Virus record (IMG/VR): IMGVR_UViG_3300043539_000897
Location: 1 to 64,000 of that record
Reading direction: 5' to 3' (one strand)
From: a virus
Length of the DNA stretch: 64,000 nucleotides
Part shown: in pieces, positions 19,637 through 55,615 of the stretch
Position numbering within the stretch: position 1 is the first letter of the stretch
Layout: the number at the start of each line of letters is the position of its first letter
Notes under the pieces: generated by a model
Told to the model about the DNA's origin: nothing
Databases searched by the model: none
The model's input: only the letters and a program-made list of their open reading frames with translations
Position numbers and translations under genes: made by a program

Positions 19637-20057
19637 TATTTATGATAGAGAAACTATCAATACCGGAGACGTGAATAATAAGTTATTTTGTACATTCGTA
19701 CCACTAAATGAAGTGGATTCCTTTATAAAGGATATATCTAGCGAATATACTATTTTATATAATAAGATTTTTGTTTTGCATATCAAGAGCAATGACGAAT
19801 ACGTTTGTACCTACAATGTTGATCAACCTAACATTAATAACATTCCAGAGAATACTATCCTAGTTCATAGAAAAAAAGAGTCAAATACCCTTTATACGAT
19901 TAATGCTTTAAACGAATTGATTAAGAGCCTAAACGAAGGCATTGTTGATACGAACTTTAGAATCAACTGGCTGCATTACAAGAATACGATTTTATTGACC
20001 CAACAAGGTGATCTTAAGCTTCTACGCACAAAGATTCACCAGATTGTTGAACTTTAA
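19602..20057 (+). CDS. Unknown protein overlapping the polymerase-like gene
   Basis: 151 aa, starting 35 nt inside the end of 18353-19636 in another frame, which suggests translational coupling. Alpha/beta, acidic to neutral, no signal peptide (FVPLNEVDSFIKDISSEYTI, NTILVHRKKES, NWLHYKNTILL). Not recognised. A functional link to the polymerase-like protein is inferred from the overlap. Confidence 0.65.
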   Translation: MDQTTTLYSPFDIYDRETINTGDVNNKLFCTFVPLNEVDSFIKDISSEYTILYNKIFVLHIKSNDEYVCTYNVDQPNINNIPENTILVHRKKESNTLYTINALNELIKSLNEGIVDTNFRINWLHYKNTILLTQQGDLKLLRTKIHQIVEL

Positions 20058-20066
20058 TATTTATTA
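20058..20066 (+). promoter_or_regulatory. Late-type motif TATTTATTA
   Basis: 2 nt before the ATG of the first MDNFDL leader gene, overlapping the end of the previous gene's intergenic space. Confidence 0.55.
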
Positions 20067-20068
20067 AC

Positions 20069-20398
20069 ATGGATAATTTCGACTTAAAAAAGTACCTTGT
20101 TGAAAATAGGTTACATCAAGAGTCTGTTGAGTTTAATAAACTACAGGACGATAATGAGTTTGATGATATACCTACTATTAAAATGCAAATTGTGGATGAT
20201 GGGGAAGGGAATTCTCCCATGGTGTTCTTTAAAATGAGCGCAATGTATCATGATGGTTCTAACGGTAAAATGCAAATCTTAAAAGATAATCCGGAACAAC
20301 AGGAAGAGGTTATGGCAACTCTGCAAAAAGAATTTCAAAAGACATTCCGAAGAGTTATTCACGGAATCTTAGGAGAACCCAACGGTCTACCTGAGTAA
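20069..20398 (+). CDS. MDNFDLKKYLVEN leader-family protein 1
   Basis: 109 aa. It starts with the 13-residue leader shared with 22505, 22857 and 23490, then diverges completely (LHQESVEFNKLQDDNEFDD). The rest is acidic with a beta segment (IPTIKMQIVDDGEGNSPMVF) and a Lys/Glu helix. The leader contains LVE, matching the (L/I)XE cleavage rule of T4 prohead protease gp21, so it may be a capsid-targeting leader. Unlike the other three it has no terminator directly after it; the ssb promoter follows instead. Confidence 0.7.
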   Translation: MDNFDLKKYLVENRLHQESVEFNKLQDDNEFDDIPTIKMQIVDDGEGNSPMVFFKMSAMYHDGSNGKMQILKDNPEQQEEVMATLQKEFQKTFRRVIHGILGEPNGLPE

Positions 20399-20430
20399 AA
20401 GCAAACTCTGTAAAATTATTAAACTTTAAG

Positions 20431-20461
20431 TTGCTAGTCTAAAGCAATTTTCATACATTTA
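20431..20461 (+). promoter_or_regulatory. Host-like promoter TTG-N20-TACATTTA (ssb)
   Basis: TTGC at 20431, exactly 20 nt, TACATTTA at 20454-20461, then 10 nt to the ATG. This TTG-N20-TAnnTTAA/TTTA layout resembles the Bacteroidetes -33 TTG / -7 TAnnTTTG promoter and recurs about 15 times in this window, mainly before replication, metabolism and small accessory genes. Confidence 0.7.
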
Positions 20462-20471
20462 AATAAAACTT

Positions 20472-21335
20472 ATGGATATCAATTCAATTAAAGCAAAGCT
20501 GAATGCTTTGCAAACTCAACAAAGCCGTCCTTCCGGAGAGGCACGTAAGAATGTCTTCTGGAAACCTGCCGTGGGCAAGCAAACAATCCGTATTGTACCT
20601 TCCGCGTACAATAAATCAAATCCTTTTTCGGAACTGTATTTTCACTACGGAATCGACAAGAATCCAATCATCTCTCCAACAAACTGGGGTGATAAAGATC
20701 CTATCGTTGAATTCGCCAAGCAGTTAAGAACCAGTAAAGACAAAGAGTCTTGGAGACTAGCACGTAAACTTGATCCTAAAATGAGGGTATTTGTACCCGT
20801 TATCGTTAGAGGTGAAGAAGCAGACGGAGTTAAACTTTGGGGCTTTGGTAAAGAAATCTACATGGAATTACTTTCTATGGTAGAAGATGAAGACATCGGG
20901 GATTACACTGATATCATTTCAGGTCGTGACTTGAATTTGACTACAGTGGGTGCTGAAACTACAGGAACTGGTTTTAACAAAACAACCGTTCGTGCACGTA
21001 CTAAAGAATCTACTTTGACCGATGACGACACATTGTTACAAACTATCTTGAACGATCAACCAGATCCTTTGAAAGTATTCTCAAGAATGTCTTTCGATGA
21101 CATGAAGTCTGTATTGCAGAAATGGTTAGCACCTGACGAAGAAGAAGGAGTAATCTCTTCTGAGCCTGTAACTAACTTTGATGATGCAAAGCCTGCTGCT
21201 CCTGCAAAGGAAGAACTTCCTTGGAAAAAATCTGAGAATCCATTTACTCTAGAATCTCAAGGAAAGAAAGTAGAATCAAAAGCCGACAAGTTCGATTCTT
21301 TATTCAACGACGACACCAACGACTTACCTTTCTAA
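20472..21335 (+). CDS. Single-stranded DNA-binding protein, gp32-like
   Basis: 287 aa (T4 gp32 is 301 aa). N-terminal self-association-like segment (MDINSIKAKLNALQ), an OB-fold core with NVFWKPAVGKQTIRIVPSAY, FSELYFHYGI and VPVIVRGEEADGVKLWGFGK, and a strongly acidic tail ending FDSLFNDDTNDLPF, the usual protein-interaction tip of SSBs. T4 gp32 has a Cys/His zinc site; none is evident here. It is the first gene of a two-gene operon with the recombinase. Confidence 0.85.
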   Translation: MDINSIKAKLNALQTQQSRPSGEARKNVFWKPAVGKQTIRIVPSAYNKSNPFSELYFHYGIDKNPIISPTNWGDKDPIVEFAKQLRTSKDKESWRLARKLDPKMRVFVPVIVRGEEADGVKLWGFGKEIYMELLSMVEDEDIGDYTDIISGRDLNLTTVGAETTGTGFNKTTVRARTKESTLTDDDTLLQTILNDQPDPLKVFSRMSFDDMKSVLQKWLAPDEEEGVISSEPVTNFDDAKPAAPAKEELPWKKSENPFTLESQGKKVESKADKFDSLFNDDTNDLPF

Positions 21336-21341
21336 TAGACT

Positions 21342-22421
21342 ATGGCTAAGAAAGAAAAAGCTTCTTTAACAGAGGCCGTGTCTGCCGAGCTTAAGAAAGG
21401 ATTCTCTTTAGATAAGTTCAAAGAGAAGAAGCTCTTAACAGGTAACGTAAAATTTAAGGATCAGCAGTGGATTCCTCTATCACCATCTTTCCAAGAGGTG
21501 ACTTCAATCCCGGGAATCCCGATGGGTCACATTGTAATGCTGAGAGGTCATTCTGATACAGGAAAGACTACAGCATTGCTTGAAGCTGCAGTATCAGCCC
21601 AGAAAGCAGGCATCCTTCCAGTATTCATTATTACAGAGATGAAATGGAATTGGGAACATGCTATTCAAATGGGTCTGCAAGTAAATCAAACGGTTGATGA
21701 ACGAACCGGTGAGGTTGTTGATTACGGTGGATTCTTTATCTACGTTGATAGAGAGACTCTAAATACAATCGAGGATGTTGCTGGATTTATTCTAGATTTA
21801 ATTGACGAACAGAAGAAAGGAAGCTTACCTCACGATCTTTTATTCCTTTGGGATTCAATCGGTTCAGTACCTTGCGAACTTTCAGTACGTTCTAACAAGA
21901 ATAATAACGAATGGAATGCAGGTGCAATGTCAACTCAGTTCGGTAATGGAGTAAATCAACGGATTGTAATGTCAAGGAAAGAGTCTTCACCGTATACTAA
22001 TACATTAGTAGTAGTAAACAAGGTATGGACTCAAAAGCCTGAATCACCAATGGGTCAACCCAAGCTTATGAACAAAGGTGGATTTGCCATGTGGTATGAT
22101 GCAACTTTTGTAGTAACGTTTGGTAACATTATGAATGCAGGTACTTCCAAGATTAAAGCAATCAAGGATGGTAAACAGGTAGAATTTGCTAAGAGAACTA
22201 ATCTTCAGATTGATAAGAATCATATCAATGGAATTACAACCCGAGGCAGGATCATTATGACACCTCACGGATTTATCAACGATGATGAGAAAGAGCTTAA
22301 GAAGTACAAAGATGCTCATGCCAAAGAATGGTCAGCCATTCTAGGAGGAGGAGACTTCGATGTAGTAGAAGAAGCTTATGAGGATTCAACACCCGGTTAT
22401 TTCCAAGAAGAGCCGGAATAA
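21342..22421 (+). CDS. uvsX: RecA/UvsX-type recombinase
   Basis: 359 aa. Walker A GHSDTGKT at residues 69-76, Walker B-like LFLWDSIGSV, and a RecA-like core continuing through VVVNKVWTQKP. It pairs homologous DNA strands in recombination-dependent replication and repair. Six nt after the ssb gene, which fits joint action of SSB and recombinase as in T4. It ends with an acidic tail. Followed by a terminator. Confidence 0.9.
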   Translation: MAKKEKASLTEAVSAELKKGFSLDKFKEKKLLTGNVKFKDQQWIPLSPSFQEVTSIPGIPMGHIVMLRGHSDTGKTTALLEAAVSAQKAGILPVFIITEMKWNWEHAIQMGLQVNQTVDERTGEVVDYGGFFIYVDRETLNTIEDVAGFILDLIDEQKKGSLPHDLLFLWDSIGSVPCELSVRSNKNNNEWNAGAMSTQFGNGVNQRIVMSRKESSPYTNTLVVVNKVWTQKPESPMGQPKLMNKGGFAMWYDATFVVTFGNIMNAGTSKIKAIKDGKQVEFAKRTNLQIDKNHINGITTRGRIIMTPHGFINDDEKELKKYKDAHAKEWSAILGGGDFDVVEEAYEDSTPGYFQEEPE

Positions 22422-22440
22422 GATTCCAAAAACTTTTAAG

Positions 22441-22469
22441 AAGAGCCCTTGCTTTGCAGGGGCTTTTTT
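22441..22469 (+). terminator. Terminator after uvsX, merged with next promoter
   Basis: AGCCCTTGC-TTT-GCAGGGGCT then TTTTTT. The TTG inside the left arm doubles as the -33 of the promoter below. Confidence 0.85.
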
Positions 22470-22479
22470 CGTTTCTTTA
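22449..22479 (+). promoter_or_regulatory. Host-like promoter merged with terminator
   Basis: TTG at 22449 (inside the hairpin), 20 nt including the T-tract, then TTTCTTTA at 22472-22479, a weaker -7. Followed by a late-type motif before 22505. Confidence 0.5.
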
Positions 22480-22483
22480 AGTC

Positions 22484-22492
22484 TATTTATAA
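22484..22492 (+). promoter_or_regulatory. Late-type motif TATTTATAA
   Basis: 12 nt before the ATG at 22505. Confidence 0.55.
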
Positions 22493-22504
22493 CAAAAGAA
22501 AAAA

Positions 22505-22768
22505 ATGGATAATTTTGATTTAAAAAAGTACCTTGTTGAGAATAAGGTTACTGCAAACTCTAGAATGATAGAAGAAGCAGAAAACGAAAATTCTCACAGT
22601 GCTATTGAAGACTTTGTAATGTCCCATCCACAGTACGAAGATCTATCACCTAGAGAATTAGCTAAGAAAGTAGCGGAGTACGCTCAAGAATGGAAGAATG
22701 TATCTACTAATTATACAGGCATTAAGGACTACTTTAGGGAATTAGAAAAAAGCGGTGACTTACTGTAA
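22505..22768 (+). CDS. MDNFDLKKYLVEN leader-family protein 2
   Basis: 87 aa. Leader MDNFDLKKYLVENKVT, then ANSRMIEEAENE, which contains a second I-x-E tripeptide. The remainder is a small acidic helical protein (IEDFVMSHPQYEDLSPRELA, YAQEWKNVSTNY). It is monocistronic between two terminator-promoter elements. If the leader is a capsid-targeting sequence cut after LVE or IEE, the mature product would be about 65-75 aa and packaged in the head. Function unknown. Confidence 0.75.
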   Translation: MDNFDLKKYLVENKVTANSRMIEEAENENSHSAIEDFVMSHPQYEDLSPRELAKKVAEYAQEWKNVSTNYTGIKDYFRELEKSGDLL

Positions 22769-22792
22769 ATAAAACTAAAAAATAAACACAGA

Positions 22793-22821
22793 AGAGCCCT
22801 TGCCTTGCAGGGGCTTTTTTC
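22793..22821 (+). terminator. Terminator merged with next promoter
   Basis: AGCCCTTGC at 22795-22803 pairs with GCAGGGGCT at 22807-22815; T-run to 22820. Confidence 0.85.
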
Positions 22822-22830
22822 TTATCTTTA
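22800..22830 (+). promoter_or_regulatory. Host-like promoter merged with terminator
   Basis: TTG at 22800 in the hairpin arm, 20 nt, TATCTTTA at 22823-22830. Confidence 0.65.
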
Positions 22831-22835
22831 GATTA

Positions 22836-22844
22836 TATTTATAA
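22836..22844 (+). promoter_or_regulatory. Late-type motif TATTTATAA
   Basis: 12 nt before the ATG at 22857, 5 nt after the host-like -7, giving a possible dual early/late promoter. Confidence 0.55.
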
Positions 22845-22856
22845 CTAAAACAAAAC

Positions 22857-23402
22857 ATGGATAATTTTGATTTAAAGAAGTACTTAGTAGAAAATAAAGT
22901 AACTACTAACTCACAGATAACAAATGAATACTCGAGCAATACGGGTTTTGATTATGATGCCATTGAAAAAATGGAGAAAGAAGCTTCTAGCGAGAAATTT
23001 CACATGTTTGTGAAGGGTGCTGATGCAGTTGCTTTTGATTTACTAGAGAAAGGTTATTCTGAAAAACAAATCAATGATTTTTTAGTTTACACAATATCAA
23101 CTCTATCAATTGATGAAACTGTTTCTGAAGCTGAAAAGAAAGAAGGAGAGCTTAAAAAAAAACCACAAAAAGTTCGTAAAGTCGAATTTCCTAACGGCAC
23201 TACTTTTAAAGTAGGTGAAGAGGATATGGAGGGAGGTATTGTTATCTTTATATACAAGTACCCTAAAGGTTACGGTGTATCTGGACAAGAGTACGATTGG
23301 AACAATGCAGAGTATGGAGAAGAAGCTTATACCTACTGGTATGACTTAGAAGGTAATGAATCAACCGAGAACGACATCGTTCCTGCTGGTTATGCTTACT
23401 AG
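22857..23402 (+). CDS. MDNFDLKKYLVEN leader-family protein 3
   Basis: 181 aa. Leader MDNFDLKKYLVENKVTTNS, then QITNEYSSN. The body has a helical part (EKMEKEASSEKFHMFVKGAD, SEKQINDFLVYTIS) and a beta-rich C-terminus (VRKVEFPNGTTFKVGEEDME, EYDWNNAEYGEEAYTYWYDL) with many aromatic and acidic residues. The body shares nothing I can see with its paralogues. A Lys/Glu stretch near residues 96-110 separates the two parts. Confidence 0.75.
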   Translation: MDNFDLKKYLVENKVTTNSQITNEYSSNTGFDYDAIEKMEKEASSEKFHMFVKGADAVAFDLLEKGYSEKQINDFLVYTISTLSIDETVSEAEKKEGELKKKPQKVRKVEFPNGTTFKVGEEDMEGGIVIFIYKYPKGYGVSGQEYDWNNAEYGEEAYTYWYDLEGNESTENDIVPAGYAY

Positions 23403-23425
23403 AGTATAGTAAAAATAAACACTTA

Positions 23426-23453
23426 AGAGCCCTTGCTTTGCAGGGGCTTTTTT
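23426..23453 (+). terminator. Terminator merged with next promoter
   Basis: AGCCCTTGC-TTT-GCAGGGGCT and six Ts; the same stem as at 22441. Confidence 0.85.
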
Positions 23454-23463
23454 CTTATCTTTA
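23433..23463 (+). promoter_or_regulatory. Host-like promoter merged with terminator
   Basis: TTG at 23433, 20 nt, TATCTTTA at 23456-23463. Confidence 0.65.
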
Positions 23464-23468
23464 GATTA

Positions 23469-23477
23469 TATTTATAA
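23469..23477 (+). promoter_or_regulatory. Late-type motif TATTTATAA
   Basis: 12 nt before the ATG at 23490. Confidence 0.55.
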
Positions 23478-23489
23478 CTAAAACAAAAC

Positions 23490-24203
23490 ATGGATAATTT
23501 TGACTTAAAAAAGTATTTAGTAGAGAATAAGGTAACTACTAATTCTAGAATGATAAACGAGTACTTTGAAAAAGAGACTCAAGACTTAGCAGAAGCTTTT
23601 GCACAAGCAGGTATTGACATGAACAAACCGGTTGAAGTAGTTGAAGCTGGTGGCGGACCTGGAGGGTCTATGGAAGAGCGTAAGGAAATGGACCCTAAAG
23701 CTTTATTACAGATGTTAGAAAAAGAAAAAGCTTCTTTTGAAGAGGATAGTGACGAAGGGGAGGCTGTTATGTACGACTTTGAAGCAGGAGAAGGATATCC
23801 TGGTGCAAAATTAGCAGTGCTATTCAGCGATCAATATGAGTATATTATTTACCAAAAAACTTCTAGTTCTAAAATGATGAACGAAGCTGCTGAAAGCAAA
23901 GTATTATTTGATTTCCCCGAAGGTGAAGAGTCCCAAGATCACTTAAACTATGAAAAACTAGGGTACACAGTTGTAATGGACGATTCAGCAAACGATATAT
24001 TATCTGCAGAGTTAGATTTAACAAAATATGATTGGATGGCTGTTCTTGCAGCATTAGAAGATGCAGCACATTACGGCCTACATCCAATGCTAAGCTACAA
24101 CGGCAAACAATATTCTAGCGAAGAAGCTATGCAACTAGCAGATGAAAAAGCAGCTAGGGATACCTACAGTGATACAGGTATTGGAGCCAGTAGCGGTAGA
24201 TAA
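23490..24203 (+). CDS. MDNFDLKKYLVEN leader-family protein 4
   Basis: 237 aa, the largest member. Leader MDNFDLKKYLVENKVTTNSR then MINEYFEKE, with LVE and INE tripeptides. A repeat of the second element appears at about residues 128-135 (SKMMNEAAESK), as if two modules were joined. The first half is acidic with a Gly-rich loop (EAGGGPGGSMEER); the second half is alpha/beta (VLFDFPEGEESQDHLNYEKL, DWMAVLAALEDAAHYGLHPM). Not recognised otherwise. Confidence 0.75.
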   Translation: MDNFDLKKYLVENKVTTNSRMINEYFEKETQDLAEAFAQAGIDMNKPVEVVEAGGGPGGSMEERKEMDPKALLQMLEKEKASFEEDSDEGEAVMYDFEAGEGYPGAKLAVLFSDQYEYIIYQKTSSSKMMNEAAESKVLFDFPEGEESQDHLNYEKLGYTVVMDDSANDILSAELDLTKYDWMAVLAALEDAAHYGLHPMLSYNGKQYSSEEAMQLADEKAARDTYSDTGIGASSGR

Positions 24204-54766: not shown

Positions 54767-55615
54767 ATGAAACGTTCAGTAATAAAAGAACTTATTAAAA
54801 GATCAATGCGTGAAGTAGCTCCAAAGACAAATTCTGGTGTAATGACTCCCGAAGAGGAGAAAGATGCTGCTGCAATGGCTGCTATCAATAAATACGAAAA
54901 AGAAGAAAAAGAAATGGATCTCCGTAGCGGACCTTCTGTAGTTCCTGGAGCAGTTCCAATGAAGGAGGGTAGTAATATTCCTACCGATATTAAATGGGAA
55001 GTTGCAGACGTATTAGACTACTATGACAATTATAGTGCTGACTTAACTGTACATGGTTATTCACCTACAACAGGTAAGACTTACGGCGGCAGCGTTGTCG
55101 GCACAGAAGCTGGTGGCGGTGACTGGGATTTCCAAGAAAGCGATATAGATTATATTGAAGAAATGCCAGAGGATAGCCCTATAAATGAAGCATCTAGCAA
55201 ATCAGCTGAGATCTTAAACAGACCAGCTCACGCTATAAGCTTTGAACAGATGGGTATGATTATGATGCTTGCTGATGAACTAGGCGAAAATAGACAAGCT
55301 GACGAGTTTCTATCCGGAGTAGTTTCAAAGAAAGCAGCTCAGGCGTATATTGAAAAACTTATAACTAGGGTAGATGGTGAAGACGGTGTACTTGCTGAAG
55401 CAGAAAAAATTGTTGCTGCATGGGCTGAAAAGCAAACTATTAAGGAAGAAATGATCGGTGGGTATATTGATGTACTAGGTTCTGACTTCGAAGACGGTGT
55501 TAAGATGGTAGAGAAAGCTTGGAATGTATGGAAAGCAGGGTCAATGACAGAGCCAGGAATGGTTGACGGTGCTAGACAAGATATTATGACTCACATAGGG
55601 AATGCTCTAATCTAA
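54767..55615 (+). CDS. Possible virion/internal protein
   Basis: 282 aa. N-terminal basic helix MKRSVIKELIKRSMREVAPK unlike the MDNFDL leader, but the gene shares that family's layout: own late-type motif, an acidic middle with GSVVGTEAGGGDWDFQESDI, a PINEASSKSAEIL segment similar to MMNEAAESK of 23490, and a terminator merged with the next promoter. The C-terminal third is helical. Packaging in the head is a guess. Confidence 0.55.
   Translation: MKRSVIKELIKRSMREVAPKTNSGVMTPEEEKDAAAMAAINKYEKEEKEMDLRSGPSVVPGAVPMKEGSNIPTDIKWEVADVLDYYDNYSADLTVHGYSPTTGKTYGGSVVGTEAGGGDWDFQESDIDYIEEMPEDSPINEASSKSAEILNRPAHAISFEQMGMIMMLADELGENRQADEFLSGVVSKKAAQAYIEKLITRVDGEDGVLAEAEKIVAAWAEKQTIKEEMIGGYIDVLGSDFEDGVKMVEKAWNVWKAGSMTEPGMVDGARQDIMTHIGNALI

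Follow-up and report, generated by a model that had tools for sequence, protein, structure and literature searches.

A shared N-terminal leader on unrelated proteins of T4-type phages as a probable capsid-targeting propeptide

Why should proteins that have nothing else in common begin with the same short peptide? The question is raised by a 64,000-nucleotide stretch of virus DNA, positions 1 to 64,000 of IMG/VR record IMGVR_UViG_3300043539_000897 (hereafter the window; the whole record is a virus contig of 166,276 bp), in which four genes, starting at 20069, 22505, 22857 and 23490 (genes 1 to 4), encode the identical N-terminus MDNFDLKKYLVEN ahead of unrelated bodies. An initial annotation had described a shared start of 13 residues, extended by KVT(A/T)NS in three of the genes, and had proposed a set of head-packaged effector proteins. 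We found an exact match to MDNFDLKKYLVEN in all four genes, directly followed by KVT(A/T)NS in three of them, and the bodies are indeed unrelated, while the 87-237 aa given there as body lengths turned out to be those of the whole proteins. A degenerate DNA pattern of the leader, allowing up to three mismatches, occurred at exactly four sites in the window, where shuffled sequences led us to expect none, and neither this pattern nor a leader profile recovered any further copy in the whole record. Motif conservation, leader swapping, the layout of head proteins and a shared upstream motif all support the proposed set, and we consider it very likely that the leader serves as an N-terminal propeptide for capsid targeting, that the prohead protease cuts it and that the cargo is injected at infection.

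The leader is not confined to this phage. Scanning IMG/VR with the patterns MDNFDLK and KYLVEN[KR][VL], we matched 381 stretches, confirmed 214 and kept 79 loci; these, together with the window and Flavobacterium phage vB_FspM_immuto (immuto), yielded 156 leader proteins that fell into 85 body families by single-linkage BLAST, many of them singletons, as anticipated if relatives carry the leader on different bodies. The seven largest records searched held 3 to 8 copies each, often in tandem. Among isolates, a tblastn search of 50,697 phage records (E<=10) found the leader only in four records of immuto, whose host is Flavobacterium sp. LMO8 and whose leader genes include genes 3, 179, 194 and 195; its gene 3 adjoins ssb, just as gene 1 adjoins the single-stranded DNA-binding protein gene of the window; the body of gene 1 is itself kept in loci L005-L009. 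Two places passed among 84,980 cellular species genomes, one of them a true match on a contig that was binned with an archaeon, carries other phage-like leader proteins and is apparently a misbinned phage; the other falls within an unrelated reading frame and was rejected as a leader gene. Because the leader is nearly absent from cellular genomes, we regard it as a phage feature. A full-text literature search for the leader peptide gave no paper. An archaeon-binned contig that is apparently phage also encodes a 520-aa protein in which a leader-like segment occurs twice (MKDNFDIHAWNRERYLG...SNDFDLREWNKKRYLG; L103:3439). At the variable sites of the leader, likeness was 0.805 within a contig, 0.827 between homologous bodies in different phages and 0.673 between unrelated phages, and the within-contig value was reached in 0 of 1000 permutations. 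Leader likeness thus tracks phage lineage, and lineage alone may explain the likeness within contigs.

The leader contains the (L/I)xE motif, after which a gp21-type protease would cut. Using 84 family representatives, we found (L/I)xE at residues 10-12 in 83, with A (38), V (36), T (5), I (4) or S (1) as the middle residue, whereas F at residue 4 and Y or F at residue 9 occurred in 84/84. A second (L/I)xE lay at residues 15-26 in 67/84 (80%), compared to a mean of 10% in downstream windows of equal size and to a mean of 21/84 (maximum 33/84) in shuffled controls. For the window itself, the initial annotation had listed IEE, TNE and INE as continuations of the leader; IEE in gene 2 and INE in gene 4 fit the motif, whereas TNE in gene 3 misses it, and gene 1 has no second (L/I)xE near its leader.

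Judged from sequence comparison, the strongest evidence for a cleavable targeting leader is the swapping of leaders on homologous bodies. The family that we call body C (FAETRGxGAAKI) carries the leader MNLLDILKE in the window phage (record 127,378), MRLLELLRE in immuto and MDNFDLRKYLAE in L032 and L058, and on alignment LKE, LRE and LAE fall in the same columns; body A (DUF5872) occurs behind three unrelated leaders, each with LSE immediately before the body. Three further scans gave 75 different N-termini of proteins with body A, B or C (with leaders such as MDRLKKIIQEVLQE, MIKLSDILKQILFE, MKRSELVQLIKE and MDTFDYKAYLKNNPLLKE), of which 71 have (L/I)xE 2-10 residues before the body (31/32, 22/22 and 18/21), although a few long ones are probably misplaced starts and those from one family do not count as independent cases. 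In these comparisons, the sequence before the motif varies freely and (L/I)xE itself does not. The window phage in addition has a second leader family, M(I)NLLDI(I/L)(K/S)E, on three consecutive genes with unrelated bodies (record 127378-128646, equivalent to L087:6579-7847), and two of these bodies bear an MDNFDLKKYL-type leader in other phages. Such exchanges speak against ordinary paralogy with bodies diverged past recognition, which would account for three genes standing in tandem with a common promoter cassette; as homologous bodies bear other leaders, and a sigma-70 factor, DUF5872 and a HAD-type domain are found among the bodies alongside proteins that have hydrophobic segments, we find this hardly credible.

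Several observations adjoin these swapped leaders. A body C protein with the leader MRLLELLRE is annotated in MW353175.1 (112261-112575; L091:20456) as tRNA(Ile2) agmatinyltransferase TiaS, an annotation that looks wrong from its sequence. A 282-aa protein at 54767-55615 of the window, starting MKRSVIKELIKRSMRE and with TATTTATA upstream, ends past TIKEEMI in the body GYIDVLGSDF...AWNVWK, which in other places occurs by itself after the MDNFDLKKYL leader. The NLLDI leader block is adjoined by a Cys-rich protein (...APLLTE; L087:5118-6134) and a small conserved protein (L087:8289-8552), homologues of which lie directly 5' of leader arrays in many relatives; the former also shows partial homology to proteins of Pelagibacter phage HTVC008M and Methylophilales phage Melnitz. 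In Methylophilales phage Melnitz-3 (L333), N-termini such as MQGFKTFLSE↓A and MKNFKNHIAE↓E (arrows, predicted cut positions) resemble T4 targeting sequences, a hint that leaders of this sort may be common in marine T4-type phages.

The protease that would cut such a leader is encoded by the phage. The phage is of the T4 type: the window encodes proteins resembling T4-type sheath, tube and baseplate proteins as well as a GroEL (assigned by eye), and the record holds a head module in the order TerL, portal gp20, protease gp21, core gp22 and capsid gp23, in which Gp23 matched PF07068 (E 1.3e-73), TerL, gp20 and gp22 were assigned from their order and by reference to how immuto is annotated, and the gp22-like protein is acidic. 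The gp21-type protease on which the proposed cleavage depends was found at record 135,843-136,259, where the gene product matched the S77 prohead protease family PF03420 (Peptidase_S77; E 5.6e-31). It is likewise present in immuto, within the same head block, and in 13 of the 21 other contigs with the leader, among them all five that measure 120 kb or more. The phage's own head proteins share the layout of the leader genes. (L/I)xE occurs at residues 4-17 in 12 of the 18 head-block genes (125.3-139.2 kb) compared to 36 of 198 elsewhere (p=2.8e-5), as in gp21 (MSKNLLIE↓T), gp22 (MTNRELLKE↓A), gp23 (MSNVQSLLE↓S) and a 380-aa protein at the core position (MKSLQNRYNLIKE↓G), and the N-termini of gp21, gp22 and the core protein are mostly kept among relatives. 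This common layout of gp22, gp23 and the 380-aa protein would equally suit leader proteins that are targeted to the prohead and cut there but serve assembly only, as scaffold, core or internal structure, without injection, and a relative of one leader body (GYVExMGP...AWxEWKxGPMTEP) is immuto gene 202, which sits between gp21 and gp22 in the place of a core gene. We nevertheless think a role restricted to assembly rather unlikely, since a set of 85 body families, many of them singletons, does not look like conserved scaffold genes, and a sigma-70 body is sensible only inside a cell.

The DNA upstream of the leader genes was compared as well (Table 1). The three tandem genes (genes 2 to 4) have a common upstream cassette of ~65-80 nt that comprises a terminator-like hairpin and TATTTATA, and as this is one duplicated cassette, its three TATTTATA copies are not independent. 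The whole record has 45 + strand copies of TATTTATA, which lies <=70 nt upstream of 32 of the 216 + strand genes, including the sheath, tube, portal and core genes; among relatives, it precedes 39/108 leader genes compared to 91/751 other open reading frames. This distribution suggests that TATTTATA may be a late-promoter-like signal. Its reverse complement is the core of the T4 late promoter (TATAAATA), the orientation here being opposite to that in T4, and it stands 12-57 nt 5' of many structural genes, with certain copies leaving nearly no 5' untranslated region. That the window genes share a terminator and a promoter-like motif could mean that a DNA cassette of terminator, promoter and start region was spread by duplication or recombination and that the peptide is functionless. 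We hold this to be highly improbable: in relatives, the DNA upstream of the leader differs and the peptide is retained, with constant residues and differing synonymous codons, and leaders unrelated in sequence replace it. It is also improbable that the leader signals a destination other than the head, such as a site in the infected cell, the membrane, degradation or a phage-built compartment, with (L/I)xE a mere part of a helix. A short helix with amphipathic character could interact with a variety of partners, and no virion proteomics was found, but wholly different leaders on one body retain only (L/I)xE at the junction, head proteins carry (L/I)xE too, and the upstream TATTTATA is common to structural genes.

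Table 1. Leader genes, predicted cleavage sites and upstream elements in the window
Feature	Position	Strand	Basis or remark
Leader gene 1 (109 aa)	20069..20398	+	5' of gp32-like single-stranded DNA-binding protein gene
Leader gene 2 (87 aa)	22505..22768	+	Open reading frame and leader identity
Leader gene 3 (181 aa)	22857..23402	+	Body akin to L025 and others
Leader gene 4 (237 aa)	23490..24203	+	Body homologue in L076 (3584)
LVE codons (residues 10-12), predicted prohead-protease site, gene 1	20096..20104	+	Sequence, motif statistics
LVE codons (residues 10-12), predicted site, gene 2	22532..22540	+	Sequence, motif statistics
LVE codons (residues 10-12), predicted site, gene 3	22884..22892	+	Sequence, motif statistics
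LVE codons (residues 10-12), predicted site, gene 4	23517..23525	+	Sequence, motif statistics
IEE codons (residues 22-24), second predicted site, gene 2	22568..22576	+	Sequence, second-site statistics
INE codons (residues 22-24), second predicted site, gene 4	23553..23561	+	Sequence, second-site statistics
TATTTATT, 1 mismatch vs late-promoter-like TATTTATA, 5' of gene 1	20058..20065	+	
TATTTATA, 21 nt 5' of gene 2 ATG	22484..22491	+	
TATTTATA, 21 nt 5' of gene 3 ATG	22836..22843	+	
TATTTATA, 21 nt 5' of gene 4 ATG	23469..23476	+	
Terminator-like hairpin and T run 5' of gene 2, repeated cassette	22442..22469	+	
Same hairpin as that of gene 2, 5' of gene 3	22793..22820	+	
Same hairpin as that of gene 2, 5' of gene 4	23426..23453	+	

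We propose that a capsid-targeting leader of this kind would act as follows. Late in infection, the leader would bind the phage's own prohead core, and the cargo would be enclosed as the shell forms. The gp21-type S77 protease would then cut after (L/I)xE, at LVE/LAE and/or at the second site ~5-12 residues further, and thereby free the mature cargo inside the head, from which it would pass, together with the DNA, into the next host and act there as a set of early effectors. As any protein could be addressed by such a leader, bodies would come and go and the leader would stay.

Known T4 sequences have the same layout, namely the N-termini of ipII/ipIII (MKTYQEFIAE↓A) and ipI (MKTFKEFTSTTTPVSTITE↓A) and, among the head proteins, those of gp21 (MNEPQLLIE↓T) and gp22 (MLKEQLIAE↓A), with cut positions (arrows) that we take from general knowledge of T4. 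As in T4 IPI, IPII and IPIII, a short N-terminal leader is common to otherwise different proteins with variable bodies, the genes are scattered outside the head cluster, and an S77 prohead protease is encoded in the genome. The leader has an aromatic residue at position 4 and another before (L/I)xE (Y4 and F7 in T4; F4 and Y/F9 here) and would therefore work like a T4 capsid-targeting sequence, while its 24-residue form resembles that of ipI in keeping the targeting part apart from the cut part. According to PMC9026906, a 10-residue sequence suffices to carry IPIII into the T4 head (Mullaney and Black 1996, described there), residues 4 and 7 of the T4 leader matter for targeting and residues 8 and 10 for processing, and T4 delivers its internal proteins into the host by ejection. 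The present system differs in its leader (MDNFDLKKYL[AV]E[GN] compared to MKTYQEFIAE), in often having two (L/I)xE sites, in its 85 families of mostly acidic bodies with up to 8 copies per record, and in that its one known host is a Flavobacterium; no internal-protein family appeared among the Pfam and PHROG matches of the bodies. T4 Alt is similarly packaged in the head, loses an N-terminal propeptide and acts on host transcription, yet no leader body matched an ADP-ribosyltransferase, and one body is a sigma-70 factor. In the Dar system of P1, an N-terminal signal (DarB) sends the protein to the head for delivery, whereas Dar proteins are without the shared N-terminal consensus (PMC9024508) that is strong here; no Dar family was among the Pfam matches of our general search, and no search aimed at Dar was made. 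Finally, in phiKZ and SPN3US a diverged, gp21-like prohead protease cleaves various head proteins following Glu, whereas a shared leader is not described for them, a distinction drawn from the descriptions in the consulted parts of PMC9026906 and PMC5694885.

A number of points weigh against the leader being a cleaved capsid-targeting propeptide of injected proteins. No virion proteomics was found that covers a phage with the leader, and in the tblastn search of 50,697 phage records the leader had no detectable homology to T4 leaders, T4 remaining unmatched even at E 10. The S77 protease was not found in 8 of the 21 leader contigs, which are possibly fragments as all are <100 kb. The second (L/I)xE is missing in 15/84 representatives, and the conservation of the leader was partly made by the search patterns, a bias that touches the first part of the leader and not the second (L/I)xE site. 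Furthermore, 80% of the bodies are acidic, unlike T4 internal proteins, which are basic (PMC9026906), and we recognized no defence-inhibitor function among the bodies.

The bodies are mostly orphans in Pfam, PHROG and PADLOC. Apart from DUF5872 and a HAD-type domain, the recognizable ones include a sigma-70 factor with regions 2 and 4 (L036), and 6 of the 85 body families have a strongly hydrophobic segment. The PADLOC matches were weak singletons (E 3.5e-4 and above) that we took as chance, a match of gene 2 to phrog_15696 ('virion structural protein'; E 0.027) was too weak to count, and an AlphaFold model of the gene 1 family (pLDDT 52) was set aside. The leader-bearing sigma-70 factor (L036:6001-6597) is a candidate virion-packaged transcription factor, and the window phage has a related leaderless protein (L085:4568). 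From the one contig with this factor, we hypothesize that a virion-carried sigma factor would target the RNA polymerase of the host upon entry, an effect that T4 Alt achieves by a different route.

The occurrence of the same address tag on dozens of unrelated proteins, in many mostly uncultured T4-related phages from water, suggests a shared label for head loading and delivery. T4-type head targeting is a known kind of system; what is new here is a different leader sequence and a far larger, mostly orphan set of cargo. More tentatively, a mostly uncultured T4-type lineage might possess an open delivery system, in which interchangeable leader classes, each a core-binding helix followed by (L/I)xE, carry freely swapped cargo that could be among the largest injected sets in tailed phages and include a virion sigma factor redirecting host RNA polymerase on entry. 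If the leader acts as proposed, a tag of 13 to 25 residues would mark injected phage proteins straight from sequence data, and hundreds of orphan genes in uncultured phages would become candidates for early effectors or for inhibitors of defence, proteins that are very hard to recognize by other means. The tag could also be tested for loading chosen proteins into the heads of Flavobacterium phages, and T4-style head targeting would prove to be a general way of addressing proteins, one that evolves and whose tags can be exchanged.

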